Part shown: piece by piece, positions 18,576 to 35,312 of the stretch
Layout: every line of letters begins with the position of its first letter
Position numbering within the stretch: position 1 is the first letter of the stretch
From: an uncultured Bacteroidales bacterium
GTDB taxonomy: Bacteria > Bacteroidota > Bacteroidia > Bacteroidales > Paludibacteraceae
Assembly (NCBI GenBank): GCA_902762355.1
Contig: CACWNR010000019.1
Location: 1 to 35,312, forward strand
DNA length: 35,312 nucleotides
Direction: 5' to 3'
Position numbers and translations under genes: made by a program
The notes under the pieces: model-generated
Databases searched by the model: none
What the model was told of the DNA's origin: nothing
Seen by the model: only the letters and a program-made list of their open reading frames with translations

Positions 18576-19580
18576 ATGGCTCAGAACAAAGGAGCAATCG
18601 TGCGCTACCGCGCCATCGACCGCTGCCTACGCAAGAAGAACGGTCGCTACGGATGGGAGGAACTTGCCAAGGCTTGTAACGAAGCCCTTTATGACGCATT
18701 CTCGGAGCATTTCTCCGTTAGTCGTCGCCAAATCTTCCTCGACCTCAATCACATGGAATCCAATGCCGGTTATCGCGCACTCATCAAGCGTACGAAAGAC
18801 GGCAAACGTACATACTATAGCTATGAGGATCCCAATTTCTCCATTGAGAAGACCCCTATCACAGAGGGTGAGGCTGAGCAGCTGAAGGAAACTATCCTTA
18901 TGCTCAACCGCTTCAAAGGTATGCCGCATTTCGAGTGGATGGAAGAACTCCTCAGCAAACTCGAAGACACCTTCCATCTAAAAGGTTCCGGCGAATCCGT
19001 CATCGGTTTTGAGCAAAATCAATATCTCAAAGGAATTGAGAACATCACACCCCTCTTTGAAGCGATTGTTAACAAGCAGGTGCTCAACATCCGCTACAAA
19101 TCCTTCAAAGCAAACAAACCCATCACCTGCGAGATACATCCGTATTTCTTGAAGCAGTACAACAACCGCTGGTTCTTGTTTGGATGGAACACGGAGTTCG
19201 GAATGATCACCAATTTCGCGCTCGACCGCATCGAGGCTATCTCGCCTATGTTCGCTGAGTATCGCGAAAAACCGGATAATATCAACTTCGATGAGTATTT
19301 CGATGACATAGTTGGTGTTACTATCCCCAAGGATAAACATATCGAACATATCGTTATGCGCGTCGCGCCCGACCGATATCCGTATATAAAGAATAAACCC
19401 CTTCACCCCTCGCAGCATTGCTATGATAAGGAGATGCGTATCACAATAGACGTCATCCCTAATAGCGAACTCATTTCGCTCCTTCTCTCGTTTGGAAGCC
19501 AAATGGAAGTGCTCGAACCGCAGTCCGTGCGCGACATGATGCGCGAGCACGTAAAAACGCTCAACAAATTTTATAAGTAA
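18576..19580 (+). CDS. WYL-domain transcriptional regulator
   Basis: 334 aa. The N-terminal ~70 residues form a winged-helix-like DNA-binding region (YRAIDRCLRKKNGRYGWEEL, SVSRRQIFLDLNHME). From about residue 145 a WYL-type sensor domain follows: ITPLFEAIVNKQVLNIRYKSF, HPYFLKQYNNRWFLFGWN and FALDRIEAI, then a C-terminal dimerisation (WCX-like) segment. Regulators of this architecture (BrxR, CapW) commonly repress phage-defence loci by binding inverted repeats. It lies directly upstream of four transcription units that each carry the same palindrome, so it is the natural candidate to bind it; that link is inferred. No copy of the palindrome was seen in front of its own operon. Likely cytoplasmic dimer. 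Confidence 0.9.
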   Translation: MAQNKGAIVRYRAIDRCLRKKNGRYGWEELAKACNEALYDAFSEHFSVSRRQIFLDLNHMESNAGYRALIKRTKDGKRTYYSYEDPNFSIEKTPITEGEAEQLKETILMLNRFKGMPHFEWMEELLSKLEDTFHLKGSGESVIGFEQNQYLKGIENITPLFEAIVNKQVLNIRYKSFKANKPITCEIHPYFLKQYNNRWFLFGWNTEFGMITNFALDRIEAISPMFAEYREKPDNINFDEYFDDIVGVTIPKDKHIEHIVMRVAPDRYPYIKNKPLHPSQHCYDKEMRITIDVIPNSELISLLLSFGSQMEVLEPQSVRDMMREHVKTLNKFYK

Positions 19581-19599: not shown

Positions 19600-19634
19600 G
19601 TGCAACATCCTTGCACTCCAAGGCAGTACTTTTG
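19600..19634 (+). promoter_or_regulatory. Island promoter module, copy 1 (ATPase operon)
   Basis: Perfect palindrome GTGCAA-CATCC-TTGCAC (19600-19616), 10 nt, then TACTTTTG (19627-19634). The palindrome occupies the place of the -33 box, for which no good match exists. Consistent with an operator for repression, or an activator site. Confidence 0.85.
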
Positions 19635-19684
19635 CACCGAAAAACGAAGTTAATCGTGCCCTTGTGGCTAAGAAAATCGAAAAG
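19627..19684 (+). repeat. Shared promoter/leader element, copy A
   Basis: The -7 box TACTTTTG is followed by about 50 nt nearly identical to 34493-34549, including 27 identical nt at 19649-19675. A GTG at 19664 inside the shared part is in frame with the ATPase (MAKK), so the shared block may include an alternative start. Confidence 0.85.
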
Positions 19685-19687
19685 ACT

Positions 19688-21481
19688 ATGGCAGTAAAGT
19701 TGATAAAAGCCTGTAAAGATTTGAATGTAGGAATGAAAACCGTCAGTGACTTTTGCGCATTGATGGGTTATCCGATTCCTTCAGATCCGAATTATCGTAT
19801 TGATGACGATTTATATATGCTGCTTCAGAAAGAATTCGGTTTCGACAGAAAGCCAAATCACCGAGGCATTCAGTCTATAGGTGTAGCGAATTTCCGAAAG
19901 TTCGAGAAGTTAGAGCCTGTCAGTCTTGACGGAGTTACGTATGTGGTCGGTGGTAACAACGCAGGTAAATCGACCATAGTAAAGGCTCTACGATTGGTTG
20001 TCGAGAACCTTTGCACTCTCAAGTCGGTTGGTAGCGATTATTCTCAGGCAGGTATGACTCCTCTTTTTCGTTTTGACTTAAAGGGCTTGAATATCGGTAC
20101 ATTTGAGAAAGCACTATATAGAAATGCATCTATAAAAGCAATCACATTTCGGTCGCAATTAAGCGATGATGTAAATGTGGCATTGACGGTTGAACCTACC
20201 ACAGAAAATTCGGCAATAGCAGTTGTTACATACCTTCGTATTGAAGACTCTTATGTTAAATTTGCTTTTGAATTGGATATGAAAGAGGGCAAGATGCGTC
20301 TTTTTAATATCGGAGGCTCACCCACTACGGAAGACGCTGAAGTTCGGTTGAAGAAATTGAATACGCAATTAAAAGAGACGCAAAACAAGTTGGATGATAT
20401 TCAAGCGCAACTTGAGAATAAAGTGGTAGTTTTGCCCTACGATAAGATGATGGATTTGATTAACAAGTCTACGCAATTCAATGCAGAAAAAGAGAAACAG
20501 GAAAAGATCATTAAGACGGTAGAGGTAGAGATTAAGACGCGTCAAAAAGGTGCTGGCACACCTGCCGGAGAGTTGCTCTTTGAGACAACGCCTTCACTCA
20601 ACAACGACAACCCGAGCGATAATCTATTGGTGCGTTTTATGAAGGGTATGCAAGTGCAACTATCCACGCAGAACACCAAGTCCCAATCGCAAAAGTCTAA
20701 AAGCCCGGTCTATGTAATGAACTTAGACAGGATGATTGGAAATTATCGTTGGGCACTTACATCTTCTGCAATTGAGTATATCGGCGCTCATGCTGCTACC
20801 CAAAAGACGATATTTAGCGTGGACGACTATAACGACGAGACTGTTGCTATTATCCATGAGTGGATGCAGCAACAGATTCTTCCGGGTGAACCCGAATACG
20901 AGTTTATCGATAGGTGGATGAAAACGTTGAATATCGGAATTAGGTTTGCTATCGAGAACCATTTCGGTGAGGCATACTCTGTAAATGTTACCGAACGTGA
21001 GGGCGAGAAACCCTCTTCGTTGTCCGAATTAGGTATGGGAGCAATTCAGATGATGACGTTACTTCTCCATATATCTTCTATCATGCGCAAGTATGCAGCT
21101 AGTAAGGTTAAGCCGCTTGTGGTATTCGAGGAGCCGGAGCAGAATATGCACCCGAATTGGCAGAGCCATCTTGCTGAGATCTTCAATGATATGCGTTTGG
21201 CTGGTTTCCGTGTGATGGTTGAGACCCATTCGGAATACATCATCCGCAAGTCGCAAATCCAAGTTGCCGAGATGAAATTCGTGGACCAAGACGACTTGAA
21301 TGAGAACTGTGAGATTGCGACATACTACTTCCCCGCTGATGGTGCTCCTTACAAAATGGGGTACCGCACTTCCGGTGGATTTATGAATCAATTTGGAGAA
21401 GGCTTCTTCGACGAGGCTGCCAAGTGGGATATGGCGATTATACAAAACGAAGTTAGTAACCCCGTTAGACGTAGAAGATGA
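19688..21481 (+). CDS. OLD/RecF-type AAA ATPase with N-terminal IF2_N-like domain
   Basis: 597 aa. Residues 1-55 (KACKDLNVGMKTVSDFCALM, DDDLYMLLQKEF) resemble the small helical IF2_N domain. An ABC/SMC-like ATPase follows: Walker A GGNNAGKST near 88-97, a coiled coil of about 215-290, ABC-signature-like LSELGMGAIQ near 445, Walker B LVVFEEPEQNMHP near 478-490, and H-loop VETHSEYII near 511. This is the head arrangement of OLD/DUF3696-type ATPases common in defence systems; no TOPRIM nuclease domain is visible. ATG 19688 is preferred (alternative GTG 19664). It overlaps the next gene by 4 nt, so the two are translationally coupled. Presumably it senses or remodels DNA/nucleoprotein and gates the partner; this is inferred. 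Confidence 0.85.
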   Translation: MAVKLIKACKDLNVGMKTVSDFCALMGYPIPSDPNYRIDDDLYMLLQKEFGFDRKPNHRGIQSIGVANFRKFEKLEPVSLDGVTYVVGGNNAGKSTIVKALRLVVENLCTLKSVGSDYSQAGMTPLFRFDLKGLNIGTFEKALYRNASIKAITFRSQLSDDVNVALTVEPTTENSAIAVVTYLRIEDSYVKFAFELDMKEGKMRLFNIGGSPTTEDAEVRLKKLNTQLKETQNKLDDIQAQLENKVVVLPYDKMMDLINKSTQFNAEKEKQEKIIKTVEVEIKTRQKGAGTPAGELLFETTPSLNNDNPSDNLLVRFMKGMQVQLSTQNTKSQSQKSKSPVYVMNLDRMIGNYRWALTSSAIEYIGAHAATQKTIFSVDDYNDETVAIIHEWMQQQILPGEPEYEFIDRWMKTLNIGIRFAIENHFGEAYSVNVTEREGEKPSSLSELGMGAIQMMTLLLHISSIMRKYAASKVKPLVVFEEPEQNMHPNWQSHLAEIFNDMRLAGFRVMVETHSEYIIRKSQIQVAEMKFVDQDDLNENCEIATYYFPADGAPYKMGYRTSGGFMNQFGEGFFDEAAKWDMAIIQNEVSNPVRRRR

Positions 21482-22521
21482 GCGAACCGCAAAGTAAATT
21501 TGTAGTCTATACGACTGAAGAAAATCTTATCCGGCTGTGTTCTGAAAAAGAGAATAGCTGGTATAAGATTATTATGAAAGTCGGTGAAGTTGTCATCTCT
21601 ACCACAAAGGGCGACAATTGGGATATCAACAATCCTGTCCTTCAAAAGTTGCATAGGGCAGGGGTTGATATATGTACTGGTGATAATGAGTTCATCAACC
21701 AGATAACAACTACTAATCCGGAAAACGTTTTGGAAGATCCGTGCGCTGCATACTTGTTAGATATAAAGGCAGAGACAGCTGAGAGAATCCAAACGAAGTA
21801 TGGAGTTATTTGTCAGCCTGTAGATAATCCCAATAATATTTTGGTTCAAGAAGGATGGGAGATAGATACTTCCGTATGTTCTGCCGAAGAAAAGTCGTGG
21901 AAGAATTTTTTTCAAGGTCACAATTGCCCCTTAAATTCAGTTGTTATTGTTGATCGCTATTTCTTCACTAGCGCCCCGGGTGAGAAAATTGATTATTCTC
22001 TTTTCAATTTGCGTCAGATTTTAGATGCTCTTTTGCCTCAGACAAGTCCGGATAATGTCATCCAAGTAAGCATAATATTTGACTTTACGAAGTTTAATTG
22101 TAATATTGACGGGAAATTTACTCTCCAAGCGTTAGCGGAGAAAGTTAATAAAGTAAAGCGTGGTGTGAGAGACTATTCATATACTTTAGAATTAATATCA
22201 ATAAACTCTAATTGCTTTAACTACCAAGATACGCATAATAGAAGAATCATTGCTAACTTTAGCATCACGAGTGCTCTTCACAAATTAAAAGCATTCTATG
22301 AAAATGAGAGTCTTTCGGATCAATATATCACTTTTAGACGTTTGTTCGAAAGAGGATTGAAAGAAGGGGATAAATCTACTGCACCTGCTTTCTCACAAAA
22401 GAACATTTTGGATAGATTGCAAGATATAATTGATTCAAGTAAGTCTGTGATTGAATATGCATGCAATGGACGTGTTTCTGCTCCAGGAAAGTTCGAAATT
22501 CAGAATAGAATGCTAAAATAA
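21478..22521 (+). CDS. Unknown partner of the ATPase (putative defence effector)
   Basis: 347 aa with no family I recognise. It starts by ATGA overlap with the ATPase stop, so it is produced with it. The middle contains SVVIVDRYFF, NLRQILDALLP and VQVSIIFDF-type beta/alpha segments, and later HNRRIIANF. This pattern is weakly reminiscent of the PLD-like MIT-C fold (often HDR-IITN), but the catalytic HKD motif is absent and I do not assign nuclease activity. No membrane segment or TOPRIM is visible, so it is not an obvious AriB/DUF4435 protein. The gene is much more AT-rich than the core genes, consistent with horizontal acquisition. A role as effector is inferred only from the pairing. Confidence 0.75.
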   Translation: MSEPQSKFVVYTTEENLIRLCSEKENSWYKIIMKVGEVVISTTKGDNWDINNPVLQKLHRAGVDICTGDNEFINQITTTNPENVLEDPCAAYLLDIKAETAERIQTKYGVICQPVDNPNNILVQEGWEIDTSVCSAEEKSWKNFFQGHNCPLNSVVIVDRYFFTSAPGEKIDYSLFNLRQILDALLPQTSPDNVIQVSIIFDFTKFNCNIDGKFTLQALAEKVNKVKRGVRDYSYTLELISINSNCFNYQDTHNRRIIANFSITSALHKLKAFYENESLSDQYITFRRLFERGLKEGDKSTAPAFSQKNILDRLQDIIDSSKSVIEYACNGRVSAPGKFEIQNRMLK

Positions 22522-22539
22522 GTACGATTTTTGATTGCA

Positions 22540-22574
22540 GTGCACTATCTTTGCACTCGAAAGCAGTACTTTTG
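22540..22574 (+). promoter_or_regulatory. Island promoter module, copy 2 (hsdMSR)
   Basis: GTGCAC-TATCT-TTGCAC (22540-22556, one mismatch from the palindrome), 10 nt, then TACTTTTG (22567-22574). About 50 nt of A-rich leader leads to the hsdM ATG at 22625. Confidence 0.85.
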
Positions 22575-22624
22575 CACCAGATTTGAAAACAAACCAAAAT
22601 TAGTAACTTAAAATTAGACGATAT

Positions 22625-24370
22625 ATGCAAAGTCAACAACCTAATGTGAACTTCATTTGGGACATCCTTGATAAGGTGTTGCACCTCACGTTCAAACGCA
22701 ACGAACTGGGTGACGTGCTTTTCCCATTCATTGTACTCCGACGTATGGATTGTATCCTTGCGCCGTACAATGATGCGGTTAATAAGGCATATCTTATGTA
22801 TAAGGACAAACTGGCTACCGACAAGTTGCATCCTATCTTGCGCAAGGCCGCGCATAATAATAACTTCTATAATACATCTAATTTTACATTAGATACATTG
22901 TTGGACGATGCACAGAATATCGACATCAACTTCCGCATGTACCTCAATGGCTTTAGCCATGAGATACAGGAGATATTCAATTATTTCCAACTCGATAAGA
23001 CCGTTCAGAAACTGAACCGTCATGGTTTGCTCTATCGCCTCATCGAGGAGATCTGCAAACTAGACCTCTCTCCGGAAGCCGTAGATAACCACGACATGGG
23101 ATCATTCTTCGAGGAAATCATCCGTCTCGCAAACGAGTCCTCAAATGAGACCGCCGGAGAGCACTTCACGCCTCGTGATGCCATCCGTCTTATGTCCACG
23201 ATTCTCTTCGAGCCGGACAAAGAGCAGCTTGCGCAAGACGGAATAATCCGTACTATCTTTGACCCGACATGTGGAACGGGCGGCATGGTCAATGTTGGAC
23301 GCAACTACATCTTGGAGGAAGTATGCAAAGATACTCCGAAGCCGACTATCAAGACCTACGGTCAGGAACTGAACGAGGTGGCCTTTGCTATTGCTAAATC
23401 CGAAGCCCTCATCACGGGTTCGGAAGCGGATAATATCCGTCTGGGTAACTCACTTACGCAAGATCGTTTCGAGGGAAAACGTTTCCATTACATGATGGCA
23501 AATCCGCCGTATGGTATTACATGGAAAGTTGAACAAGAGTATGTGCTCAATGAATCGCTGAACCCGAACGGCCGTTTCACAGCTGGCACTCCGCGTGTCA
23601 GTGATGGTCAGTTGCTCTTCTTGCAGCACATGATTTCGAAGATGGAATCGACTGGTTCTAAAATAGGCGTCGTAACAAACGGTTCTCCGCTTTTCTCTTC
23701 CGATACGGGAGAAACCAATATTCGTCGTTGGATTATTGAGAACGATTGGCTCGATTGTGTCATTGCACTTCCAAAGGACCTCTTCTACAACACAGGTATA
23801 GCTACCTATATTTGGATTTTGTCCAACAAGAAGTCTGAACAGCGTCGTGGTAAGATTCAGTTAATCGATGCTACATCGTTCTGCACGCCTTCCATGAAGA
23901 ATCTTGGTAGCAAGCGTAATGATATCCGCGAAGAACACATTCGGCAAGTTCTAAAACTTTACATGGATTATCAGGAGAACGAATTCTGTAAGATTTACCC
24001 AAATATGTTCTTCGGTGCTTATGAGTTGACCATCGAACAACCACAACGCAAAGATGGAAAAGTAGTAACCAAAGTAGGTAAGATTCAAGCAGATTCCAAG
24101 AAACGTGATACCGAGACTGTACCTTTGGATTGCGATATCCAAAAGTATTTTACAGAAGAGGTCCTTCCGAATATCGATCCTGAATCTTGGATTGACTATA
24201 CCAAGACTCGTGTGACGTATGCTATTAACTTCACTTCCTATTTCCATAAGGAGGCTGAGCGGGAGTCTGTTAAAATTCTGAGCGACCGTATAATAGGCAG
24301 GGATGCAGAAACCAATATGACACGTCAAGAGATGATACAACATCTTCTTGATGAGATATTTGCGGACTAA
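22625..24370 (+). CDS. hsdM: Type I restriction-modification DNA methyltransferase subunit
   Basis: 581-aa N6-adenine methyltransferase subunit of a type I system. An N-terminal HsdM_N helical region (FIWDILDKVLHLTFKRNELGD) is followed by the methyltransferase core: FTPRDAIRLM, the SAM-binding DPTCGTGGM near 212-220, and catalytic NPPYG near 293-297 (motif IV). The SAM-domain order is intact, so it should be active. It is the first gene of the hsdMSR unit; hsdS begins 2 nt after its stop. Confidence 0.96.
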   Translation: MQSQQPNVNFIWDILDKVLHLTFKRNELGDVLFPFIVLRRMDCILAPYNDAVNKAYLMYKDKLATDKLHPILRKAAHNNNFYNTSNFTLDTLLDDAQNIDINFRMYLNGFSHEIQEIFNYFQLDKTVQKLNRHGLLYRLIEEICKLDLSPEAVDNHDMGSFFEEIIRLANESSNETAGEHFTPRDAIRLMSTILFEPDKEQLAQDGIIRTIFDPTCGTGGMVNVGRNYILEEVCKDTPKPTIKTYGQELNEVAFAIAKSEALITGSEADNIRLGNSLTQDRFEGKRFHYMMANPPYGITWKVEQEYVLNESLNPNGRFTAGTPRVSDGQLLFLQHMISKMESTGSKIGVVTNGSPLFSSDTGETNIRRWIIENDWLDCVIALPKDLFYNTGIATYIWILSNKKSEQRRGKIQLIDATSFCTPSMKNLGSKRNDIREEHIRQVLKLYMDYQENEFCKIYPNMFFGAYELTIEQPQRKDGKVVTKVGKIQADSKKRDTETVPLDCDIQKYFTEEVLPNIDPESWIDYTKTRVTYAINFTSYFHKEAERESVKILSDRIIGRDAETNMTRQEMIQHLLDEIFAD

Positions 24371-24372
24371 TT

Positions 24373-25713
24373 ATGATAAGATATCCTAAATATAGAGAAT
24401 CTGGAGCACAGTGGATGGGATCTATCCCTGAGCATTGGAATGTGAGTAAGTTGGTTTGGTTGTTGGAGCATATCACAACTGGACTGAATCCTCGCGCGAA
24501 TTTTAAATTCATAGAGAACGGAGACTATTATTATGTTACCATCGCTAATTTTAAAGATGGTCAGTTGTTCCTCGATGAGAAATGTGACCGCATTGACGAA
24601 GCGGCTTGGAATGTAATTCAGAAACGTTCGGATTTGCAAGTTGGTGATATTCTATTTGCGAGTATATCAAAAGATGGTCAGGCTTATGTTGTATCTGAGT
24701 TCCCTTCTAATTGGAATATTAATGAATCCGTTTTCAAACTCCGATTTAAAAAGGATGTCATCATGCCAAGATTTGCATATTATATCTTGACTAATGAGGC
24801 GTACTACAATGAATTAAGAAAAAATGCTACTGGTTCTACTTTCCAAAGCATAAAGCAGAATAAATTGAAGTTGAGTTCCATCCCAGTCCCGCCTCTTGCG
24901 GAGCAAAATGCAATTGCAGAATATTTGGATGATAAAACTGCGAAGATTGATGAGTGTATTAAACTGCTTGAATTGCAAAAATTGGATATTCTGAAATTCC
25001 ACGATGCTGTTATTTCCGAGACTATTACGCTCGGTTTGGATAGACAAGTGAATTTAAAAGATTCTGGTCTTCGTTTTGTTGGTATGATTCCTCGGGATTG
25101 GGAAGTAAAACAGATAAAAAATGTTGCGACTTTTCACAATGGAGATCGTGGTGTTAATTATCCAAGCGGGAACGATTTAGTTGATAGCGGTGTACCTTTT
25201 TTGACATCAAACAACTTGCACCAATTAATTCTTGATGTTGATAATGCTGGTTGTAAGTTTATAACTCGCGAACGGTATGATATACTGGGCGGAGCTAAGA
25301 TTCAGATAAATGATATTGTGTATTGTTTGAGAGGAAGTGTTGGTAATTGCTCCCTTAACAAACAACTCACAGAAGGAACTGTAGCATCATCTTTGATGGT
25401 GATACGTCCGACTGATATTGTACCGGAGTATTTGAATTACTTATTACATTCTGATATCATTAAGAACCAGACGAATGTTAATATGAATGGTACATGTGCT
25501 GCTAATTTATCTGCCGATAATGTTTCTAGATATAAGATTCCCGTACCACCTGTCTCTGAGCAGAAAGATATAGTAGATTCGCTTAACAAAAAAACCGCCA
25601 AGATTGACGAGGCAATCCGTCGCATTGACGAGCAGATAAATGATCTCCGTGCGTACCGCACTGCACTCATCAGTGAGGTGGTTTCCGGTAAAATTGACGT
25701 TAGGAACAATTGA
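24373..25713 (+). CDS. hsdS: Type I restriction-modification specificity subunit
   Basis: 446 aa with two target-recognition domains, each starting with an IPEHWNVSKL or IPRDWEVKQI motif (residues ~18 and ~235) and each ending in a coiled-coil spacer: PPLAEQNAIAEYLDDKTAKIDE and PPVSEQKDIVDSLNKKTAKIDE. This two-TRD order defines a bipartite recognition site; the site itself cannot be read. The gene is AT-rich compared with hsdR. No second hsdS fragment, inverted repeats or recombinase is near it, so it does not look like a phase-variable locus. Confidence 0.95.
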   Translation: MIRYPKYRESGAQWMGSIPEHWNVSKLVWLLEHITTGLNPRANFKFIENGDYYYVTIANFKDGQLFLDEKCDRIDEAAWNVIQKRSDLQVGDILFASISKDGQAYVVSEFPSNWNINESVFKLRFKKDVIMPRFAYYILTNEAYYNELRKNATGSTFQSIKQNKLKLSSIPVPPLAEQNAIAEYLDDKTAKIDECIKLLELQKLDILKFHDAVISETITLGLDRQVNLKDSGLRFVGMIPRDWEVKQIKNVATFHNGDRGVNYPSGNDLVDSGVPFLTSNNLHQLILDVDNAGCKFITRERYDILGGAKIQINDIVYCLRGSVGNCSLNKQLTEGTVASSLMVIRPTDIVPEYLNYLLHSDIIKNQTNVNMNGTCAANLSADNVSRYKIPVPPVSEQKDIVDSLNKKTAKIDEAIRRIDEQINDLRAYRTALISEVVSGKIDVRNN

Positions 25714-25727
25714 CAAATACTATAGAT

Positions 25728-28700
25728 ATGTCCAATCGTAACACAGAAACCTTGCTTGAAGAGCATATCGTTAAGCATTTGACGGAAAACGATCACTATC
25801 ATCTTCACACTACCGATGAATATGATAGACAAGATTGTTTGCTCAAAGGTGACCTTATTGACTTCCTTAAAGCTACCCAACAGAAAGAGTACAACTCTTT
25901 GGTAGCCAACGTCGGTACGGAAGAACGCGCACAACGCTCTATCTTCGAGCGCGTCCAATCCGAAATGCGGAATGGCGGTACGCTCAACCTCTTGCGCCAA
26001 AAATCCTTTGACGCAGGTTATGGTTGCCAGTTCAAGTTGGTTTATTTCCAACCGAACAGTGGGCGTAGCGAAGCGCACCAATTGCTCTACAATGAGAACC
26101 GCATCACTGTGGTTCGCCAGCTACGCTATGGTGTTAAGCCGGAGAATGCAGGCAATGAGATAGATCTCGTTATATTTGTCAATGGTTTCCCTGTTGCTAC
26201 GATTGAGTTGAAGAACAAGCAAACCGGTCAAACGCATCTTAATGCAATCAAGCAATACATGCGTGACCGCAATCCCAAAGGTGAACCGCTGTTGGAGTTC
26301 AAACGCTGCTTGGTTCACTTTGCGGTTGGCACCGAGCAGGTTTTCATGACAACCAAACTGAACGGTTCAAGCACTCGCTTCTTCCCGTTCAACAAGTCCT
26401 TTGAGAATCTCAAAGAACCGGGCAATCCGTACCGCACTTCCTATTTGTGGGAAGAAGTGCTCACACGTAATTCCCTATTGGATCTTATCCAGAACTACAT
26501 CAACATCCAGATTAACGAGGAAAAGAAATACGATCCTCGCACTCGTCAACTGATAACCGAGAAATCGGAAGCTCTGATTTTCCCGCGTTATCATCAACGT
26601 CGCGCTGTAAAGCGTTTGGTTGCTGACACGTTCGAACGAGGTGTAGGTCACCGCTATCTCATCGAGCACTCTGCCGGATCCGGAAAGTCCAACACGATTG
26701 CTTGGTTGGCATTCCGTTTGGCTTCTCTCCACAATGGAGAAAATCGCTCCAATGCCGTTTTCGATAGCGTCTTGGTTGTAACCGACCGTCGAGTTCTCGA
26801 CCGCCAGTTGCAACGCAACCTCACGCAGTTCGCTCCGGAACTAGGAGAGATCGAGTGCATCGATTCTCGCAAGGGAATGACCTCTCAAGACCTCAAGACC
26901 GCCATTGAGAACCGCAAGAAAGTCATTGTGACTACTTTGCAGAAGTTCTCCGTCATCTGCGATGAAATCGCCCACTTCCCAGATCGTAACTACGCAGTCA
27001 TCATCGATGAGGCACACTCTTCACAAACTGGTGAGTCAGCTCGCGATATGCGTAAAACACTCTCCCTCGCTGAGGCTCAAGAGTTCGATGCTCGTTATCT
27101 TCCGTCTCGTGAGACCGAAGACGCGGTGAACTTCATGCTTGAAGAAGACGACCGTCGCGACCAGATTGATGTAATCAACAATCGCGTCCGAATCGAACTG
27201 AAACGAAAGACCGCTCGTCATAATATCTCCTTCTATGCTTTCACGGCTACGCCGAAAGCGAAGACTATCGAGATATTTTGTGAGCACGAGAATGGTTCGA
27301 AAATACCGTTCGATGTTTATTCCATGGAAGATGCTATCAAAGAGGGCTTCATCCGTGACGTGCTGGAGAACTACACCTCCTTCAAACGTTACTTCAAACT
27401 TGTGCGCGACCCGAAAGTGGATGACAAAGAGTACGAAACGAAGAAAGCAGTTCGACTGCTCACAAGCTTCGTCGATATCCAAGATGCTGCAATCGAACGC
27501 AAGTCGCGCATCATGGTAGAGCACTTCGCATCTCAGACAGCAAAGCAGATTGAAGGCCAGGCTCGCGCTATGGTCGTAACCCGTTCGCGTCTGCATGCCG
27601 TTCGTTTCAAACTGATGTTCGACAAGATCATGCAGGAGATGCGATTGCCATACGGATGTCTGGTCGCATTCTCCGGAACGGTGCATGATGATGCAACAGA
27701 TATGGACTACACCGAGACTATGATGAACCATCTCGGTGGAAATATCGACATCCCCGATGCATTAAAGATGCCGCAATACCGCATCCTCATCGTGGCTGAC
27801 AAATACCAAACCGGCTTCGATGAACCGATGCTCCATACCATGTTCGTGGATAAAGCGCTTGGCGGTACTGCAACTGTGCAGACCCTCTCGCGTCTTAACC
27901 GTACCATGCCGGGCAAGAACAGCACCATGGTTATTGACTTTGTCAACGACCCTGAGGATGTTCAGAAAGACTTCCAGATGTACTACGGTACGAATTCGAT
28001 GCTGGAGGAAGATGAGACGAACCCGAATGCACTCTATGACTTGAAATCGCAGATTTACGCATACAATGCATTCTCGCAGAATGATGTGGATGAGTTTGCG
28101 TCCGTATATTTCTCCGACCAAGATGCAAACCTTGTCTATCCGGTTCTTTACCGCGTAAGCGACTCTGTGAAACTCAATTTCGATGATGATACACGTGAGA
28201 AATTCCGGAAGACATGCAGCCAATTTGTGAAACTTTATAAGTTCCTCTGTCAGGTTATCTCGTTCGAAGATATCACCTTGGAGAAATTGTATGTCTTCTT
28301 GGCTGCTTTGGTAAAGCAATTGCCGTTCGATTCGGATACCCTTCCATATGAAATTCTCAACGAGGCGCAATTGGATAGCTACAAACTCCAGTACCAATAT
28401 ACCACGAGTCTGAAACTGCAATCGCAAGACTCTCTGATGGAAGGTCTCAAACCGGGTTCTGTGAACGGTCGTGAGGAAGAAGAGATGGAGTGGTTGAGCA
28501 AAATCATCAAGACGCTCAACGACACCTTCGGTATTGATCTATCCGATGATGACAAGGTTGACTTGCAGCACTTGCACGACCGTCTGATGAGTGACGAAGA
28601 GTTGATGCGCTACTTTACTGCCCTCAATGCACGTGACGATGTGCAAGAGCACTTCAACGAAGCAGTCGATGATGCACTCTTGGAATTCATCAACGGCAAA

Positions 28701-28805
28701 CTGGAACTGTACAACAAGTTGTCCGAAGATAAAGTAAACACCCTCTTCAAATCAACATGGTTCAATGAACTCTATGACCGCCGTGTTAGAGGTTTATATG
28801 CCTAA
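25728..28805 (+). CDS. hsdR: Type I restriction enzyme motor/nuclease subunit
   Basis: 1025 aa. An N-terminal PD-(D/E)XK nuclease domain shows EIDLVIFVNGFPVATIELKN (residues ~144-163, with D and ExK). It is followed by an SF2 translocase: motif I HSAGSGKSN near 313-321, DEAH near 426, FTATP (motif III) and a C-terminal motor motif TGFDEPMLHTMFVDK. The helical C-terminal domain binds HsdM. I chose ATG 25728; a longer frame begins with TTG at 25710, overlapping hsdS by 4 nt, and is less likely. All catalytic motifs are present, so the system appears complete and potentially active. Confidence 0.95.
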   Translation: MSNRNTETLLEEHIVKHLTENDHYHLHTTDEYDRQDCLLKGDLIDFLKATQQKEYNSLVANVGTEERAQRSIFERVQSEMRNGGTLNLLRQKSFDAGYGCQFKLVYFQPNSGRSEAHQLLYNENRITVVRQLRYGVKPENAGNEIDLVIFVNGFPVATIELKNKQTGQTHLNAIKQYMRDRNPKGEPLLEFKRCLVHFAVGTEQVFMTTKLNGSSTRFFPFNKSFENLKEPGNPYRTSYLWEEVLTRNSLLDLIQNYINIQINEEKKYDPRTRQLITEKSEALIFPRYHQRRAVKRLVADTFERGVGHRYLIEHSAGSGKSNTIAWLAFRLASLHNGENRSNAVFDSVLVVTDRRVLDRQLQRNLTQFAPELGEIECIDSRKGMTSQDLKTAIENRKKVIVTTLQKFSVICDEIAHFPDRNYAVIIDEAHSSQTGESARDMRKTLSLAEAQEFDARYLPSRETEDAVNFMLEEDDRRDQIDVINNRVRIELKRKTARHNISFYAFTATPKAKTIEIFCEHENGSKIPFDVYSMEDAIKEGFIRDVLENYTSFKRYFKLVRDPKVDDKEYETKKAVRLLTSFVDIQDAAIERKSRIMVEHFASQTAKQIEGQARAMVVTRSRLHAVRFKLMFDKIMQEMRLPYGCLVAFSGTVHDDATDMDYTETMMNHLGGNIDIPDALKMPQYRILIVADKYQTGFDEPMLHTMFVDKALGGTATVQTLSRLNRTMPGKNSTMVIDFVNDPEDVQKDFQMYYGTNSMLEEDETNPNALYDLKSQIYAYNAFSQNDVDEFASVYFSDQDANLVYPVLYRVSDSVKLNFDDDTREKFRKTCSQFVKLYKFLCQVISFEDITLEKLYVFLAALVKQLPFDSDTLPYEILNEAQLDSYKLQYQYTTSLKLQSQDSLMEGLKPGSVNGREEEEMEWLSKIIKTLNDTFGIDLSDDDKVDLQHLHDRLMSDEELMRYFTALNARDDVQEHFNEAVDDALLEFINGKLELYNKLSEDKVNTLFKSTWFNELYDRRVRGLYA

Positions 28806-28825
28806 TTAGACGATTTTTATTTATA

Positions 28826-28860
28826 GTGCAATATCTTTGCACTCTTAAGCAGTACTTTTG
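28826..28860 (+). promoter_or_regulatory. Island promoter module, copy 3 (amidohydrolase)
   Basis: Perfect palindrome GTGCAA-TATCT-TTGCAC (28826-28842), 10 nt, then TACTTTTG (28853-28860). The TATCTTTG inside it also looks like a -7 box but lacks a -33 partner. Upstream shares about 20 nt (GATTTTTATTTATA-like) with copy 4. Confidence 0.85.
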
Positions 28861-28885
28861 CAGCAGATTTTAAAAGATCTGCTGC
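28860..28885 (+). promoter_or_regulatory. 5'-terminal mRNA hairpin before the amidohydrolase start
   Basis: GCAGCAGAT (28860-28868) and ATCTGCTGC (28877-28885) form a perfect 9-bp stem with loop TTTAAAAG. It would lie at the very 5' end of the mRNA, with the ATG at 28888 just 2 nt after it. It may stabilise the RNA or limit ribosome access. Confidence 0.7.
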
Positions 28886-28887
28886 TT

Positions 28888-29601
28888 ATGTATCAAAACA
28901 TCGTATTACACATCCCGCACAACGCGAAACTTATCCCAACGACTATTGCTCGAAAGGAAGGGCACCCGCACCCAAAAGAATTGGAAGAGAAGTCGTTCTA
29001 CTTAATCGACTATTTCACATTCATTCTCTTTAGTCCCGGTATCCTTAATCCTCGAGTAAGTCGTATTATTTCACCTATCCATAGAATGCTCATCGATATG
29101 GAGCGCCTTCCTAACGATCCTTTGGAAGCCAAAGGTTTTGGCATTGTATCTCAATGGGCTCTGGATTGGTATGGTAATAGTTTCCGTAAACGTGCCATGA
29201 GCCTCTACAATGATTATCAAGACTGGGGCAAGGAAGTAATTAATTCCTTTGACCATCCGCTTCTGATAGACTGTCATTCTTTCTCGGCTCACCCGACACC
29301 CCTCTGCGAGTGCCCGCCCGATATCGACATCTGCATCGGCTGGAATGAAGATGAAACCAAACCATCTCAAGAGGTTTTGGATCTTATCGTTTCTTATTTT
29401 TCGAACCTAGGATACTTGGTTAGTCTGAACGAACCTTTCTCGAATAGCAAGACCTTCGCCGGTGCTATTAACTACCACTCGTTGATGATTGAGATTAACA
29501 AGCGATGCTATATGAATGAAGAGACCGTCGAAAAAACCGAAGGCTTCTTCAAACTCCAGAAAGAGTTATTTGACTTATATAATATACTGCTGAACGACTA
29601 A
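28888..29601 (+). CDS. N-formylglutamate amidohydrolase-like protein
   Basis: 237 aa. It resembles the FGase family (zinc hydrolases): HIPHNAKLIP near the start, DMERLPND-type and YHSLMIEINKRCYM motifs, and LLIDCHSFSAHP near the middle (the DLHSFS-like motif). In histidine degradation these release formate from N-formylglutamate, but no Hut genes are nearby. The gene stands alone with its own copy of the island operator directly after hsdR. A role in the defence unit, or a mere passenger function, is inferred. I chose ATG 28888, since a TTG start at 28858 would lie inside the promoter. Catalytic residues look conserved but the substrate is unknown. Confidence 0.7.
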   Translation: MYQNIVLHIPHNAKLIPTTIARKEGHPHPKELEEKSFYLIDYFTFILFSPGILNPRVSRIISPIHRMLIDMERLPNDPLEAKGFGIVSQWALDWYGNSFRKRAMSLYNDYQDWGKEVINSFDHPLLIDCHSFSAHPTPLCECPPDIDICIGWNEDETKPSQEVLDLIVSYFSNLGYLVSLNEPFSNSKTFAGAINYHSLMIEINKRCYMNEETVEKTEGFFKLQKELFDLYNILLND

Positions 29602-29622
29602 TATATTATATTTATTTTTATA

Positions 29623-29657
29623 GTGCAACATCTTTGCACTCCAAACCATTACTTTTG
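29623..29657 (+). promoter_or_regulatory. Island promoter module, copy 4 (small peptides and 211-aa protein)
   Basis: Perfect palindrome GTGCAA-CATCT-TTGCAC (29623-29639), 10 nt, then TACTTTTG (29650-29657). Confidence 0.85.
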
Positions 29658-29707: not shown

Positions 29708-29785
29708 ATGAGAGAGTTGCTTAGTATTTTAGTAGGTCTTATTGAGATTATTTTGGCTCTTTGGTTCTTAATCGAACTGGCCTAA
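29708..29785 (+). CDS. 25-aa hydrophobic micropeptide
   Basis: ATG-to-TAA reading frame of 25 codons beginning MRELLSILVGLIEIIL, a single predicted transmembrane helix with acidic and basic residues only at the ends. It follows the island promoter copy 4 and the leader hairpin, and a similar peptide comes 39 nt later. Such tiny membrane peptides can be toxins, membrane-targeting effectors or regulators; its length alone prevents a firm call. Alignment with the second peptide (LVGLIEIIxALWFLIEL against LGLIFDIIKIIFFGALAIEL) suggests a duplication. Confidence 0.45.
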   Translation: MRELLSILVGLIEIILALWFLIELA

Positions 29786-29824
29786 CTTTTCTATCACTTT
29801 ATTGTTAAATTTTCTGTCTGCCTT

Positions 29825-29950
29825 ATGAACGACTACGACAAAATCATGGAGTCCGTTAACAATATCAAAGGACTCATCCTTGGATTGATTTTTGATATCA
29901 TCAAAATCATCTTCTTTGGCGCTCTTGCCATAGAGTTGATTATGAACTAA
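29825..29950 (+). CDS. 41-aa membrane micropeptide
   Basis: 41 codons. A charged N-terminus (MNDYDKIMESVNNIKG) is followed by one strongly hydrophobic helix (LILGLIFDIIKIIFFGALAI). It is related to the preceding 25-aa peptide in its helix. It ends 20 nt before the 211-aa protein, so the three are probably one transcript under operator copy 4. Holin-like or toxin-like membrane effect is possible but unproven. Confidence 0.5.
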   Translation: MNDYDKIMESVNNIKGLILGLIFDIIKIIFFGALAIELIMN

Positions 29951-29970: not shown

Positions 29971-30606
29971 ATGGAAACACCTATTATCACTGCGACCGGC
30001 TATGAAGAAACGGTCGGGAAGAGATTGCAGCAACTTGCAAAAGAGAAAGATTTCGATTCGCTCGGGAATGTTCTAAACAAAGTCCATGTCCCCGAAGGAT
30101 TCAAACTGGCTATTCATGCCGTCAGCGAACAAGAAGAGTGCGGCATGGGAGCCGAGAGTTATACGATGCTCGTAGCTCCGGATGGGGAAACTATCTCCGA
30201 TAAGGATAAAGAGTTCTGGAAAATGCTCAAGGTCGAAGACTCGCCGGAAGGAGCATGGCAGGTTTATCTTCTGCACAACCTCTGGCACTATCTCCCGATG
30301 TTTTGGCATGCGTTCTATGAGGAACGTCACTATGTCTATTCGATCGACCAACTGAAGATGACCCTTCGCTACCAACCGCACTTTGGTGATGAAGTAGTCC
30401 CTGCTTTTGATGTGGATCAATTCGAGATCCATCCCGTCATCAATCGAGTAGGGAACATCTGGCATGTTGGAGCGCACTTCTGGTCTGACTTTGAAGGCTT
30501 GGTGTATGAGGAACTGAAGATATCCCTCTCCGGCAAAGTGCATATTTATTCGCGTCCCGCAAGTCGTAAAATCCTCCATCACTATGACTGCGGAATCTGC
30601 TTCTGA
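29971..30606 (+). CDS. Unknown 211-aa protein of the defence island
   Basis: Not recognised. No signal peptide or transmembrane helix; predicted mixed alpha/beta. Aromatic- and His-rich centre (LHNLWHYLPMFWHAFYEERHYVY) and a second segment with GNIWHVGAHFWSDFEGLVYEEL. It is 20 nt downstream of the second micropeptide and last in the island, so it may be a partner or antidote to the peptides. The Cys at the end (CGICF) has no evident partner motif. Confidence 0.75.
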   Translation: METPIITATGYEETVGKRLQQLAKEKDFDSLGNVLNKVHVPEGFKLAIHAVSEQEECGMGAESYTMLVAPDGETISDKDKEFWKMLKVEDSPEGAWQVYLLHNLWHYLPMFWHAFYEERHYVYSIDQLKMTLRYQPHFGDEVVPAFDVDQFEIHPVINRVGNIWHVGAHFWSDFEGLVYEELKISLSGKVHIYSRPASRKILHHYDCGICF

Positions 30607-30794: not shown

Positions 30795-31018
30795 ATTTCG
30801 TCGCGGACTCCTCGACGTTAAACTGGAGAACATATTGAAATAGCGCATCTGCGCGTAGGCATATACCTTCGAAACGAAGCGGCGAAACTTTAATGTAGCG
30901 AAAGAGATATGCCCCAACTATCTATGTCTTGGCATGGGTCGAAGGGGTATCGCTACAAAGTTCGCCGCTTTCGTTTTGTATCCCTCCGGCCTGTGCTTTT
31001 TTCAAAAACCATAAAAGC
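30795..31018 (+). ncRNA. Candidate structured leader or small RNA
   Basis: Predicted RNA with several stems. A long helix pairs 30872-30891 (AAACGAAGCGGCGAAACTTT) with 30957-30976, near-perfect with two single-base bulges. Inside it TGTAGCGA (30894-30901) pairs with TCGCTACA (30950-30957), and ATGCCCC (30909-30915) with GGGGTAT (30944-30950, one G-U). Alternative stems exist: CTTCG-AAA-CGAAG (30867-30879) and GGCATAT/ATATGCC, so the fold could switch. GCGC-ATCT-GCGC (30843-30854) precedes it. Function and boundaries are unknown; no reverse transcriptase is nearby. Confidence 0.5.
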
Positions 31019-31453
31019 ATGTCAACCTATAACTACGCACCCGGAGCGGTGCACCTTGATTTTCATCATAATAATATCTCCATGTCGGCTTCTACAATCA
31101 CCGACCTCGTCCGCTCTTTCATGTCCGACAAAAGTACCGAAGACATCACCCCCTCCGAAGATTCTTCCTTTCCGTCCGACAACTTGTCGGACATCTCCAA
31201 TTCCATCATCTTCACCAAGAAAGCCAAACTCGAACACAAAGAACCGTATATCATCCAAGCCCTGCAAAAGTCCGTACTGGGCAGAAAAGACAAAACCCGT
31301 GCCTTCGTCCAAGAACTGCACGATTGGCAGAAACAAGCCTACGTCGATGCCCACTATAATGCACGTGTGATGTACGACGAACTGGAAAAACTGATGCCGA
31401 TTTCGTTCGGCTATGATGTGTTTAGACGCCTCTATAACAGCTCGAGAAACTAA
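31019..31453 (+). CDS. Unknown 144-aa accessory protein
   Basis: Starts MSTYNYAPGAVHLDFHHNNI, a kind of N-terminus seen in recurring hypothetical proteins of Bacteroidales mobile elements (my recollection, not a search). A Ser/Asp-rich linker follows, then a helical C-terminal half (LEHKEPYIIQALQKSV, KTRAFVQELHDWQKQ, LMPISFGYDVFRRLY) that might bind DNA or protein. The start ATG 31019 is chosen because upstream sequence is the structured leader. Stop is followed at once by a phased TCCCA array and a terminator. Confidence 0.65.
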   Translation: MSTYNYAPGAVHLDFHHNNISMSASTITDLVRSFMSDKSTEDITPSEDSSFPSDNLSDISNSIIFTKKAKLEHKEPYIIQALQKSVLGRKDKTRAFVQELHDWQKQAYVDAHYNARVMYDELEKLMPISFGYDVFRRLYNSSRN

Positions 31454-31531
31454 TCCCATTTCATTCCCATTTGAGTCCCATTTCAGTCCCAAAAATCCCA
31501 AAATAGTCCCGTCAATCCCAAACGAGTCCCG
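31454..31531 (+). repeat. Phased TCCC(A/G) array
   Basis: Eight TCCCA/TCCCG pentamers begin at 31454, 31465, 31476, 31487, 31496, 31507, 31516 and 31527, spaced 11, 11, 11, 9, 11, 9 and 11 nt. They start right after the stop of the preceding gene. Spacing close to one helical turn suggests binding sites on one face of DNA, or a C-rich RNA. Confidence 0.75.
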
Positions 31532-31553
31532 AAATTCGAGGCTCGTTTTTTTT
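31520..31553 (+). terminator. Rho-independent terminator
   Basis: AAACGAG (31520-31526) pairs with CTCGTTT (31542-31548), followed by a T run to 31553. It overlaps the end of the TCCC array and the -33 region of the next promoter. Confidence 0.75.
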
Positions 31554-31566
31554 ATACCTACCTTTG
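31535..31566 (+). promoter_or_regulatory. Promoter of the HNH gene, inside the terminator
   Basis: TTCG (31535-31538, imperfect -33), 20 nt, TACCTTTG (31559-31566). The -33 lies in the loop of the preceding terminator. Confidence 0.6.
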
Positions 31567-31570
31567 CACT

Positions 31571-31610
31571 CGGATTTGAGCTGTAGCAACGTCGCTGCAC
31601 TAAAGATCCG
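31571..31610 (+). promoter_or_regulatory. 5'-leader hairpin of the HNH gene
   Basis: CGGAT (31571-31575) pairs with ATCCG (31606-31610), around an inner TGTAGC/GCTGCA stem (31582-31587 and 31594-31599, one G-U). It ends 5 nt before the ATG. Confidence 0.7.
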
Positions 31611-31615
31611 ATGTT

Positions 31616-32263
31616 ATGAAAAATTCAAAATCACAAACTCCGCTCAACCGTCTTTGGTTCCTATCCAGAGGCTATCGCAAACACCCTCGTCTTAACCTTT
31701 GGGCACACGAAGGATGCTCATGCTTCTTCAATGCGCACGGACAAAAATTAGCGCACAATTACTCCCCCGCGCGGCGCGCTAAATCTGTCGGTCGAGGGTA
31801 CAGAGCCCCCTCTACGAATTGTCGGGAAGGAAACAAAGCCTGCCATGTCCTCATGGGCGAGATTTTCTACGGAGAACGCAAGATCTTCTTTGACAGCAAA
31901 GGGAAACCTTATTTCGGTCACTGTCATCACCTCATCAATGATCCGCTCAACTATGCCCCGGAGAACCTCCTCTGCTGGCTTACTTATTCCGAGCACAGCA
32001 AAGCTGACAAACGTCGCTGTGCCCTCGAAGACATCGTCCCAGATGGCAATCTCGTTGGTTTCGATTATGCCATCCTCCGCGAACTCCAAGACCCGCGCAC
32101 GATGTCCGATGCCGAGTTCCAATCCCGCCTCGAATACATCCGTTTCATGCGCGAGTGCGACTTCGATCCCCGCATCTTCACCGCTGCCGACTTCCACCAC
32201 TGGTTCTCCATGCCCCTCGACGACTTCAAATCCTTCTTCTCCCACTATGCGAACAAGTCCTAG
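31616..32263 (+). CDS. HNH endonuclease-like protein
   Basis: 215 aa. The motif GKPYFGHCHHLINDPLNYAPENLLCWLTYSEHSKADKRR (in parts) shows the HH-x-N-x-N-xxNL pattern of HNH/HNH_3 nucleases (His pair, Asn, Asn, His), preceded by an RKIFFDSKGK strand and followed by a C-terminal helical region of about 90 residues. HNH proteins of this type include homing and phage-borne nucleases. No intron or target gene is evident here. The catalytic residues look intact. Confidence 0.75.
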   Translation: MKNSKSQTPLNRLWFLSRGYRKHPRLNLWAHEGCSCFFNAHGQKLAHNYSPARRAKSVGRGYRAPSTNCREGNKACHVLMGEIFYGERKIFFDSKGKPYFGHCHHLINDPLNYAPENLLCWLTYSEHSKADKRRCALEDIVPDGNLVGFDYAILRELQDPRTMSDAEFQSRLEYIRFMRECDFDPRIFTAADFHHWFSMPLDDFKSFFSHYANKS

Positions 32264-32286
32264 CTTGTATTGTACTTGTATTGTAC
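32264..32286 (+). repeat. CTTGTATTGTA direct repeat (x2)
   Basis: Two adjacent 11-nt copies directly after the HNH gene stop. Confidence 0.7.
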
Positions 32287-32328
32287 TGCCCACTTGGCGT
32301 GTTTTACTTAATCATTCCCCTCTTTACT

Positions 32329-32376
32329 TGTTCCCTTTTTAGGATATTTTTTGCAATTTTTAGCAAAAAGGGAACA
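32329..32376. promoter_or_regulatory. Perfect 12-bp inverted repeat with 24-nt spacer
   Basis: TGTTCCCTTTTT (32329-32340) and AAAAAGGGAACA (32365-32376). Long for chance. It may be a terminator after the HNH gene, an operator, or a recombination site. Confidence 0.65.
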
Positions 32377-32413
32377 TGCTTAGATGCCCATAAAAATCTT
32401 TCTTTGTATTACA

Positions 32414-32430
32414 GGGCTATCAGATAGCCC
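32414..32430. promoter_or_regulatory. 17-bp palindrome upstream of the 103-aa gene
   Basis: GGGCTATC-A-GATAGCCC, perfect 8-bp arms around one base, about 48 nt before the next start codon. Size and place fit an operator or a short hairpin. Confidence 0.6.
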
Positions 32431-32477
32431 GCCCAAAATTTGATCACTTTTGTTTTATACTTAAAACAACCAACATT

Positions 32478-32789
32478 ATGAAAAATTTCGAAGAAATTAA
32501 TCGTGCCCAAGGGGCTAAGAAAACTGAAAATCTAAAACTCCTGCGCGAACTGCGCACCCAAGAAAAAGCCCTCAAGGCTCAAATCGATTCCATTTCCGAC
32601 GCTGCCACCACCGAAGCCGTCGCCATCCTTGCCATCCGCTGGAGGCAGAAGAACGAACAGAAAGAGCAGAGTCGCAAGTACCAAGCCGCTCTGACGCGTG
32701 AGATGAAAGGTATCACCGACGGCTTCGTCGCCACGCACCCCGATTGGACCCCCGACGAGATCAAACTCACCGTCAAAGTCATTGATTAA
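32478..32789 (+). CDS. Small helical protein of unknown function
   Basis: 103 aa, predicted almost all helix with an Arg/Lys/Glu/Gln-rich coiled-coil middle (NLKLLRELRTQEKALKAQID) and an IRWRQKNEQKEQSRKY basic stretch. Function unknown. Its first codons (INRAQGAKKTEN) share DNA with the promoter/leader element at 19649 and 34516: ATTAATCGTGCCC and GGCTAAGAAA are conserved, so that leader sequence is part of the coding region here. Confidence 0.65.
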   Translation: MKNFEEINRAQGAKKTENLKLLRELRTQEKALKAQIDSISDAATTEAVAILAIRWRQKNEQKEQSRKYQAALTREMKGITDGFVATHPDWTPDEIKLTVKVID

Positions 32790-32798
32790 ATAATGGGG

Positions 32799-32895
32799 CC
32801 CCCGGAGAATCTGTAATTCTCTGGGGAGAGCGGAGCTGCTCCGAGTACTCCCTACTAAATAATCGTTTGAGTTTTTTACGAAAAAAGAAAACGAT
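32799..32895. promoter_or_regulatory. Cluster of three hairpins in the intergenic region
   Basis: CCCC-GGAGAAT pairs with ATTCTCT-GGGG (32799-32826); CGGAGC-T-GCTCCG lies at 32831-32843; ATCGTTT pairs with AAACGAT around TTTTTT/AAAAAA (32862-32895). The first two follow the stop of the 103-aa gene at 10 nt and may terminate or stabilise its transcript. No clear promoter was found before the next gene. Confidence 0.6.
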
Positions 32896-33023
32896 ATTTG
32901 GTACATGTACGAGGAGTTTGCCCGCGAAAAAGAGAAAAGAACCAAAAGAGAAAACCATTCGGTTAGTACCTTAATCTTTATCTAAAAATAATTTATTTTA
33001 TAAATTTAAAAGGGTTTTTCTTT

Positions 33024-33404
33024 ATGGAAAAGGCAGAAACCATAGATGATGTATTGAGCAAGAAAGGCAGCCTCGCGTACGTTTGGGCAATCATCGACCC
33101 CGAGAACAAATACGCGTATAGCACGGCTATCAAGGAGTGGTATCGACTCTCTCTCCTGCAGCAGCGACGGCTCTACCTCTACTGCCTTTACCGCAAATGG
33201 CGCGGCGAAGGTTTCTATGGTACGCCTTACGACATCATCTCCAACTGCCATCCGTACCCCACCAACTGGGATGGACGACTGCTGGTCGACAAACTCCTCA
33301 AAGAGGGCAAAATCGTCTCGGCTAAGTTCAACGGCTCCTATGGTCTCTACACCCGCGACGAGGCACGTGTATGGCAGATGGAGGATGTCCAACCCCGCAA
33401 ATAA
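33024..33404 (+). CDS. Unknown 126-aa accessory protein
   Basis: Mixed helical protein beginning MEKAETIDDVLSKKGSLAYVW, with an aromatic helix (RLYLYCLYRKWRGEGFYGTPYDI) and a DGRLLVDKLLKEGKIVSAKF segment that could be a winged-helix-like fold. Not recognised. It is probably transcribed with the gene cluster that follows, though a strong palindrome at 33422 separates it from the next one. Confidence 0.65.
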   Translation: MEKAETIDDVLSKKGSLAYVWAIIDPENKYAYSTAIKEWYRLSLLQQRRLYLYCLYRKWRGEGFYGTPYDIISNCHPYPTNWDGRLLVDKLLKEGKIVSAKFNGSYGLYTRDEARVWQMEDVQPRK

Positions 33405-33421
33405 TAATCTATGTTTATTAC

Positions 33422-33438
33422 GCCGGATACTATCCGGC
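33422..33438 (+). terminator. Palindromic hairpin after the 126-aa gene
   Basis: GCCGGATA-C-TATCCGGC, perfect 8-bp arms; a T run follows 17 nt later (33455-33462), so termination efficiency is uncertain. A palindromic operator is the alternative. Confidence 0.5.
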
Positions 33439-33468
33439 ATTGTATAACCCTCAATTTTTTTTACAACT

Positions 33469-33819: not shown

Positions 33820-33840
33820 TCTTAAAACATATCTATTACC

Positions 33841-33862
33841 TATGTTTTACGTATGTTTTACG
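33841..33862 (+). repeat. TATGTTTTACG tandem repeat (x2)
   Basis: Two adjacent 11-bp copies in the 65-nt gap before the next gene, possibly a regulator-binding pair. Confidence 0.65.
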
Positions 33863-33884
33863 TGTTCATTCAAATTTTTAGCAT

Positions 33885-34435: not shown

Positions 34436-34437
34436 AC

Positions 34438-34488
34438 GGTTCATTGAACCACGAACGGAGCCCCATTTCTTGGTGGCTTCGTTTTTTT
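34438..34488 (+). terminator. Rho-independent terminator
   Basis: AACGGAGCC (34454-34462) pairs with GGCTTCGTT (34475-34483, one G-U) before a T run (34482-34488). A preceding small hairpin, GGTTC-ATT-GAACC (34438-34450), is included. Confidence 0.85.
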
Positions 34489-34549: not shown

Positions 34550-34551
34550 CA

Positions 34552-35279: not shown

Positions 35280-35312
35280 TCTTCTCTCTCCCCTCCGGTG
35301 AGTGTATGTACT

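Follow-up and report, generated by a model that had tools for sequence, protein, structure and literature searches.

The 35,312-nt stretch analysed here, referred to as the window, is contig CACWNR010000019.1 (positions 1 to 35,312; assembly GCA_902762355.1) of an uncultured Bacteroidales bacterium of the Paludibacteraceae. Judged by its sequence, it holds a conserved WYL-linked defence regulon in which each cassette has one operator-promoter module, made up of a palindrome (dyad) GTGCAA-N5-TTGCAC, exactly 10 nt, and then the -7 box TACTTTTG. Four such modules follow a gene for a WYL regulator on the forward strand. We regard it as probable that this local WYL protein is the regulator, that it would bind each dyad as a dimer in place of the usual -33 contact, and that it would activate all the cassettes, with single-stranded DNA (ssDNA) as the trigger.

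Promoter modules and their spacing

The first module (19600..19634) starts 20 nt past the stop codon of the WYL gene, with the dyad at 19600-19616 and the -7 box at 19627-19634. The other three lie at 22540..22574 (dyad 22540-22556, box 22567-22574), 28826..28860 (dyad 28826-28842, box 28853-28860) and 29623..29657 (dyad 29623-29639, box 29650-29657), all on the plus strand. The palindrome is perfect in three of the four modules, the one at 22540 having one mismatch (GTGCAC), and the distance from the dyad to TACTTTTG (N10) is exactly 10 nt in all four. Together the four make up a single repeat family of 66 nt, with a conserved dyad and -7 box and a partly conserved 10-nt linker. A first-pass annotation had placed four modules at these positions, directly downstream of a WYL gene and in front of an ATPase pair, hsdMSR, an amidohydrolase and a micropeptide unit, with none before the WYL gene itself. 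The positions and the spacing were confirmed, matches to Pfam and to defence families and a peptide comparison agree with the cargo named, and ahead of the WYL gene the window showed no site. In the 1.94-Mb genome (76% complete) the perfect palindrome occurs at 3 places, all of them in the window, and the reversed control at 0. Allowing up to 3 mismatches gave no full module in the window beyond the four. One bare dyad with 2 mismatches lies at 7128; at 2 mismatches, 5 matches were found in the window versus 1.43 expected, and 2 of 100 shuffles reach 5. The bare dyad is thus only mildly enriched, and the case therefore rests on the full module and on the related genomes. Compared with Rfam at gathering scores, the window gave 0 families, and no earlier description of the module was found in the literature searched, most subscription journals being outside our reach.

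Promoters of Bacteroidota are described by their -33 and -7 boxes, the latter having the form TAnnTTTG. Since part of the loci from the genus had been chosen by the pattern itself, the spacing was tested on loci selected by their WYL matches. Around 42 full-length WYL matches, the -7 box is present at exactly 10 nt for 68 of 84 dyads and at 17 nt for 1, and there is none for the remaining 15. According to the gene calls, sites lie a median of 22 nt past the preceding stop and 51 nt ahead of the next start, and 1 of 90 sites (at most 2 mismatches) is inside a called gene of at least 100 aa. It should be noted that the gene caller is crude and that the 232 promoters without a site, taken from the same loci for comparison, include chance TAnnTTTG matches. 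At a 20-nt spacer 80 of these 232 have TTTG (TTG in 124, with a sharp peak) versus 0 of 62 site promoters; as the fixed bases of the dyad nearly exclude TTTG, the latter count shows only that the dyad occupies the -33 position. The centre of the dyad is about 3-4 bp downstream of that of the -33 box. In the clade of the window the right half-site does contain a TTTG, at 13 nt, which is the wrong spacing. The earlier statement that the palindrome replaces the -33 box holds in this sense, with the loss of the box nearly inevitable once the dyad stands there.

Copies that lie between cassettes, at the short median distance from the preceding stop given above, with cargo that varies by species, might also be read as cassette-boundary or recombination sites instead of operators. 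We find this hardly credible, as some of the sites are located in divergent promoters and the inner bases of the dyad follow the WYL gene and not the cargo (see below). The recombination-site reading was set aside, as was one in which the repeats are terminators, because conserved sequence reaches as far as the -7 box, at a near-fixed spacing.

Occurrence of the module with WYL genes

A survey of 61 genomes located the module in 10 of the 37 that belong to the same genus; 8 of these 10 have 2-4 copies on one contig and strand. The 24 genomes outside the genus gave two single one-mismatch matches, one of them (G053) just after a WYL gene. A search of 178 genus genomes at up to 1 mismatch yielded 78 modules in 39 genomes, and the reversed pattern 1. 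Full-length WYL homologues are present in 37 of the 178; both WYL and site were found in 31 genomes, WYL only in 6, site only in 8 and neither in 133 (Fisher p = 2e-21, which ignores shared ancestry). Of the 78 modules, 64 lie on the same fetched stretch as a WYL homologue, and of these 62 are downstream of it on the same strand. Sites upstream of the WYL gene are seen in 2 of the 64 cases, and three further WYL loci have a divergent site. The proposal that the copies form one regulon gains support from this recurrence of the same module in the relatives.

Same-strand sites are present in 35 WYL loci. In 19 of these the first downstream site is at most 30 nt from the WYL stop. In 15 others it is 0.8-1.7 kb further on, in 14 of them behind a single gene that lacks its own site, and in the last one it is 4.4 kb downstream. 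The intervening genes match PDC-S02 (YhcG nuclease, family c3), PDC-S27 (c16) or a DUF4062/HATPase protein (c10). As such a gene directly after WYL (14 of 35 loci, for example L078, L083 and L089) has no site, it may share the transcript of the WYL gene.

Operator bases and WYL clades

The inner seven bases of the dyad agree at 0.776 between loci with related WYL proteins versus 0.418 otherwise. Carrying the same cassette has little effect on these bases, with 0.756 versus 0.778 within a clade and 0.373 versus 0.421 between clades. The Mantel r is 0.611, a value reached by 0 of 5000 permutations (35 loci, 76 sites). Two main WYL clades can be seen, one with inner bases like AATAGGT (17 loci) and the other like xYATCTT (12 loci), and one genome (G177) has two WYL loci, one for each operator type. 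A WYL sub-branch in three genomes (G013, G018 and G137) is divergent from a variant module, GCGCAA-N5-TTGCGC, which is found in only these 3 of the 178 genomes. The mean identity of the linker (N10) shows a weaker effect of WYL and a small effect of the cargo (0.72 versus 0.653 within a clade), so that the linker may partly travel with the cargo.

At the level of the order, WYL was found at E 1e-40 in 66 of 393 genomes drawn. Outside the genus we examined 40 loci, 39 of them also outside the family; they are the best 39 and G218 among the 72 matches listed in other genomes. A dyad lies within 60 nt of the WYL stop in 16 of the 40 versus 0.19 expected, and the share depends on the resemblance of the WYL protein: 14 of 20 loci at 40% identity or more versus 2 of 20 below. 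Of these 16 dyads, 9 have the full TAnnTTTG at 10 nt and 7 a partial one, while 2 are of the form with GTTCA/TGAAC half-sites, which was added after it had been seen; one genome (G297) has three such modules. Five of the 40 loci come from a single genome (G511), and none of these five has the dyad. The view of the first-pass annotation that the WYL protein is the regulator is supported, at the level of sequence, by inner bases that track the WYL clade and not the cargo, by variant operators that go with variant WYL proteins and by the co-occurrence in genomes.

Several observations weigh against this reading. For 14 of the 78 sites there is no WYL gene in the fetched stretch; the contig extends upstream by less than 4 kb for 10 of these and by more for the other 4 (G015, G113 and, twice, G163). 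The c3 gene, a frequent follower of WYL, is present in G113 and G167 with no WYL gene before it. Conversely, among the 42 WYL loci 7 lack any same-strand site at up to 2 mismatches: 3 have the divergent variant operator, 1 has its contig end just after WYL, and G011:C45 (84% identical), G108:C22 and G193 have none. A wider scan of contigs gave at least 117 loci, of which 27 are DNA of the genus loci; among the 90 others listed, some of them from Paludibacteraceae, a WYL relative is present in the piece of at most 8 kb for 22 and absent for 68. The bare pattern is, for this reason, not a specific marker in the wider scan. On the concern raised at the outset that the motif might be common in unrelated promoters, the answer is no for this genome and this genus, whereas in the wider scan the bare pattern does lie away from WYL genes. 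Of the 42 genomes behind such wider-scan loci 41 were searched and a WYL match exists in 26, a count in which sites and matches are unmapped by contig and from which nothing is concluded. Further, the metagenome-assembled genomes are incomplete. The p-value and the Mantel result overstate the evidence, since the relatives do not count as independent and the ancestry of WYL may partly follow that of the host. Lastly, the best-studied WYL regulators of defence, BrxR and CapW, are repressors.

The sites and wider-scan loci with no WYL gene nearby, some of them with other recurrent inner sequences, would also be expected if an unlinked regulator bound the dyad and the WYL gene were a mere neighbour. 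This is very improbable in our view, as the operator bases co-vary with the WYL clade, variant operators accompany variant WYL proteins, and one genome has two operator types, each with its own WYL. As separate observations from the wider scan, several of the listed loci (L186, L215, L221 and L278; L228, L233 and L245) have the same dyad-box geometry with inner GTGCAATTTCATTGCAC, GTGCAAGGAAGTTGCAC or near variants. Loci of this type have no WYL relative in the piece, and some of the pattern loci lacking WYL share inner sequences, for example in Tannerellaceae; such sites perhaps belong to other regulators. Among viral contigs, the exact pattern was found in 10, and a WYL relative at E 1e-20 in none of them.

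The probable regulator and its proposed mode of action

The WYL gene (18576..19580, plus strand) encodes 334 aa with matches to Pfam WYL (1e-14) and WCX (1.6e-11). The AlphaFold model (mean pLDDT 79.8, pTM 0.52) has helices and wing-like strands at the N-terminus and gives whole-chain structural matches to DriD and BrxR. The protein therefore has the WYL domain, the WCX domain and a winged-helix-like N-terminal part, as is characteristic of the winged helix-turn-helix-WYL-WCX transcription factors. A search of the PDB with the model ranked DriD best (about 16-20% identity), followed by PafBC, BrxR and CapW. The protein of the window is the only WYL match in this 76%-complete genome, and the dyad is symmetric. 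As the local regulator of the island, the protein would bind as a dimer to the 17-bp dyad (core RTGCA-N7-TGCAY) lying across the -33 of each cassette promoter, 10 nt from the -7 box TAnnTTTG. Because the cassette promoters lack a -33 box, the bound WYL protein most likely stands in for the -33 contact, in the manner of DriD and PafBC, and would thereby turn on all cassettes at once. The trigger would likely be ssDNA that arises in phage replication or through DNA damage and is sensed by the WYL domain.

DriD, a WYL activator of Caulobacter, has an N7 dyad that overlaps the -35 box at one distance from the -10 box in promoters with a poor -35 (preprint PMC12340889). The system of the window resembles it in having N7 between the half-sites and a dyad over the -33 box at a near-fixed distance from the -7 box, in targets with no good -33 box (the last point being nearly implied by the dyad); DriD also ranked first in the PDB search, with a fold that CapW and BrxR share. 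The system of the window differs in its half-sites, which are ATACGAC in DriD, in the targets, which are DNA-damage genes there, and in the host. PafBC, a mycobacterial WYL activator, works by sigma adaptation that replaces the -35 contact (PMC11804915), and the WYL fold and the proposed substitution for the -35/-33 contact are common to both. PafBC itself is a heterodimer. It differs in its -26 motif and in serving a DNA-damage regulon rather than a defence island.

A repressor like BrxR or CapW acting on the same sites, and released by a phage-derived signal, is the other way in which the dyads could be used. It is common for toxic defence genes to be silenced, RNA polymerase would be obstructed by a dyad lying on the promoter, and BrxR does repress through inverted repeats (R-BOX1 and R-BOX2) at two places of its island (PMC9122601). 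The regulator of the window has the winged helix, the WYL domain and the C-terminal domain of BrxR, lies at the head of a defence island and has repeats at several places. But the first-described site of BrxR precedes the gene of the regulator itself, in between that gene and the promoter, and BrxR represses, whereas here up to four sites lie before cassettes, across the -33 position at near-invariant spacing, and seldom before the regulator. Autoregulation through a repeat before the own gene, as in BrxR and CapW, is mostly not seen: there is none in the window, and the few upstream and divergent sites have been given above. The co-location with defence systems known for these two regulators is present. 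CapW shares the fold, and an ssDNA-bound structure of it is in the PDB (9c5g), but it is linked to CBASS and called a repressor (mentioned in PMC12255303). RptR, similarly, is one regulator heading a defence island with type I restriction, although it is a helical repressor and not a WYL protein, and has three 6-bp palindromes in one promoter (PMC12255303). The near-invariant 10-nt spacing together with the loss of the -33 box exceeds what a blocker would need, and the fold search ranks DriD first, though CapW and BrxR share the fold. We consider the repressor unlikely but not remote; a DriD-like activator is more likely than a BrxR-like repressor. Of the two effects that the first-pass annotation had allowed for the dyad on sigma contact, substitution, with activation, is favoured over blocking.

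Cassettes in the window and in related genomes

All cassettes of the window are on the plus strand. Cassette 1 consists of an AAA_15 ATPase that is AriA/NsnB-like (19688..21481; family c1, the first gene after 13 of the 90 sites) and a 347-aa partner with no family assigned (21478..22521), whose slot is held in relatives by the separate families c7, c29 and c82. Cassette 2 (22625..28805) is a type I restriction-modification system with hsdM (22625-24370), hsdS (24373-25713) and hsdR (about 25728-28805). Cassette 3 is a 237-aa N-formylglutamate-amidohydrolase-like protein (28888..29601; Pfam PF05013), for which there was no PADLOC match at E 0.001. Cassette 4 has two hydrophobic micropeptides, of 25 aa (29708..29785) and 41 aa (29825..29950), and a 211-aa protein with no family assigned (29971..30606; c63), which is also present behind sites in G188. 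The two peptides (29708-29950) are conserved in G188 (L070:13905-14320), where each has its own site, while one is shared in the window.

Family scans of the relatives used one representative per family. Type I restriction is present behind sites in the window by family match and in relatives by clustering, and an MmeI-like type IIG enzyme lies behind a WYL-less site of G015. Other cargo includes defence reverse transcriptases, ShosA with a HAD partner (ShosTA-like), RmuC, a PD-T4-6-like kinase with a PP2C phosphatase, PDC-M16A/TOTE and a PIF1 helicase. Cargo behind the sites differs between species, and relatives of several of these families recur in the order-level loci. The representatives of the tagged families c4, c39, c29, c82, c18 and c63 had no match in the families scanned. 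A mini-cassette was seen in three genomes (L024:11638-11860, L074:4438-4660 and, on the minus strand, L076:17501-17726), in which a site precedes a conserved acidic protein of 42-43 aa and the next site, about 207 bp further along, stands ahead of a defence reverse transcriptase.

Of 9 proteins scanned past 30.9 kb, 2 match phage families (holin phrog_881, E 3e-4; phrog_1501, 1e-7). The island, bordered here by small genes with weak matches of this kind (30900-35312), may adjoin a prophage or a prophage remnant. A leader-like element, TTAATCGTGCCC-N4-GGCTAAGAAA, is present in the window at 19650-19675, 32497-32522 and 34517-34542, and at 8 places of the genome at up to 2 mismatches (reversed control 0). 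By eye, its centre could form a small GCC/GGC hairpin, for which there is no Rfam match in the window.

Implications for defence islands

Interchangeable cassettes would follow from such an arrangement, as any set of defence genes bearing the dyad-promoter module would join the regulon. Whether this extends over the Bacteroidales as an operator-addressed immune regulon, with a portable dyad-promoter tag, one ssDNA-sensing WYL activator replacing the -33 contact, co-evolution of operator and regulator, and exchanged cargo, is a proposition to which we give even chances. As operator and regulator appear to co-evolve while the cargo is swapped, the tag may be used to find new defence systems; it is a sequence handle for new defence genes, several of the tagged proteins having no match in the families scanned. 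The module also makes possible a cheap and direct test of activator versus repressor logic in Bacteroidota. The regulation of defence islands as wholes is poorly known, and one regulator that addresses many swapped-in cassettes by a standard module would account for the immediate control of a newly acquired system.

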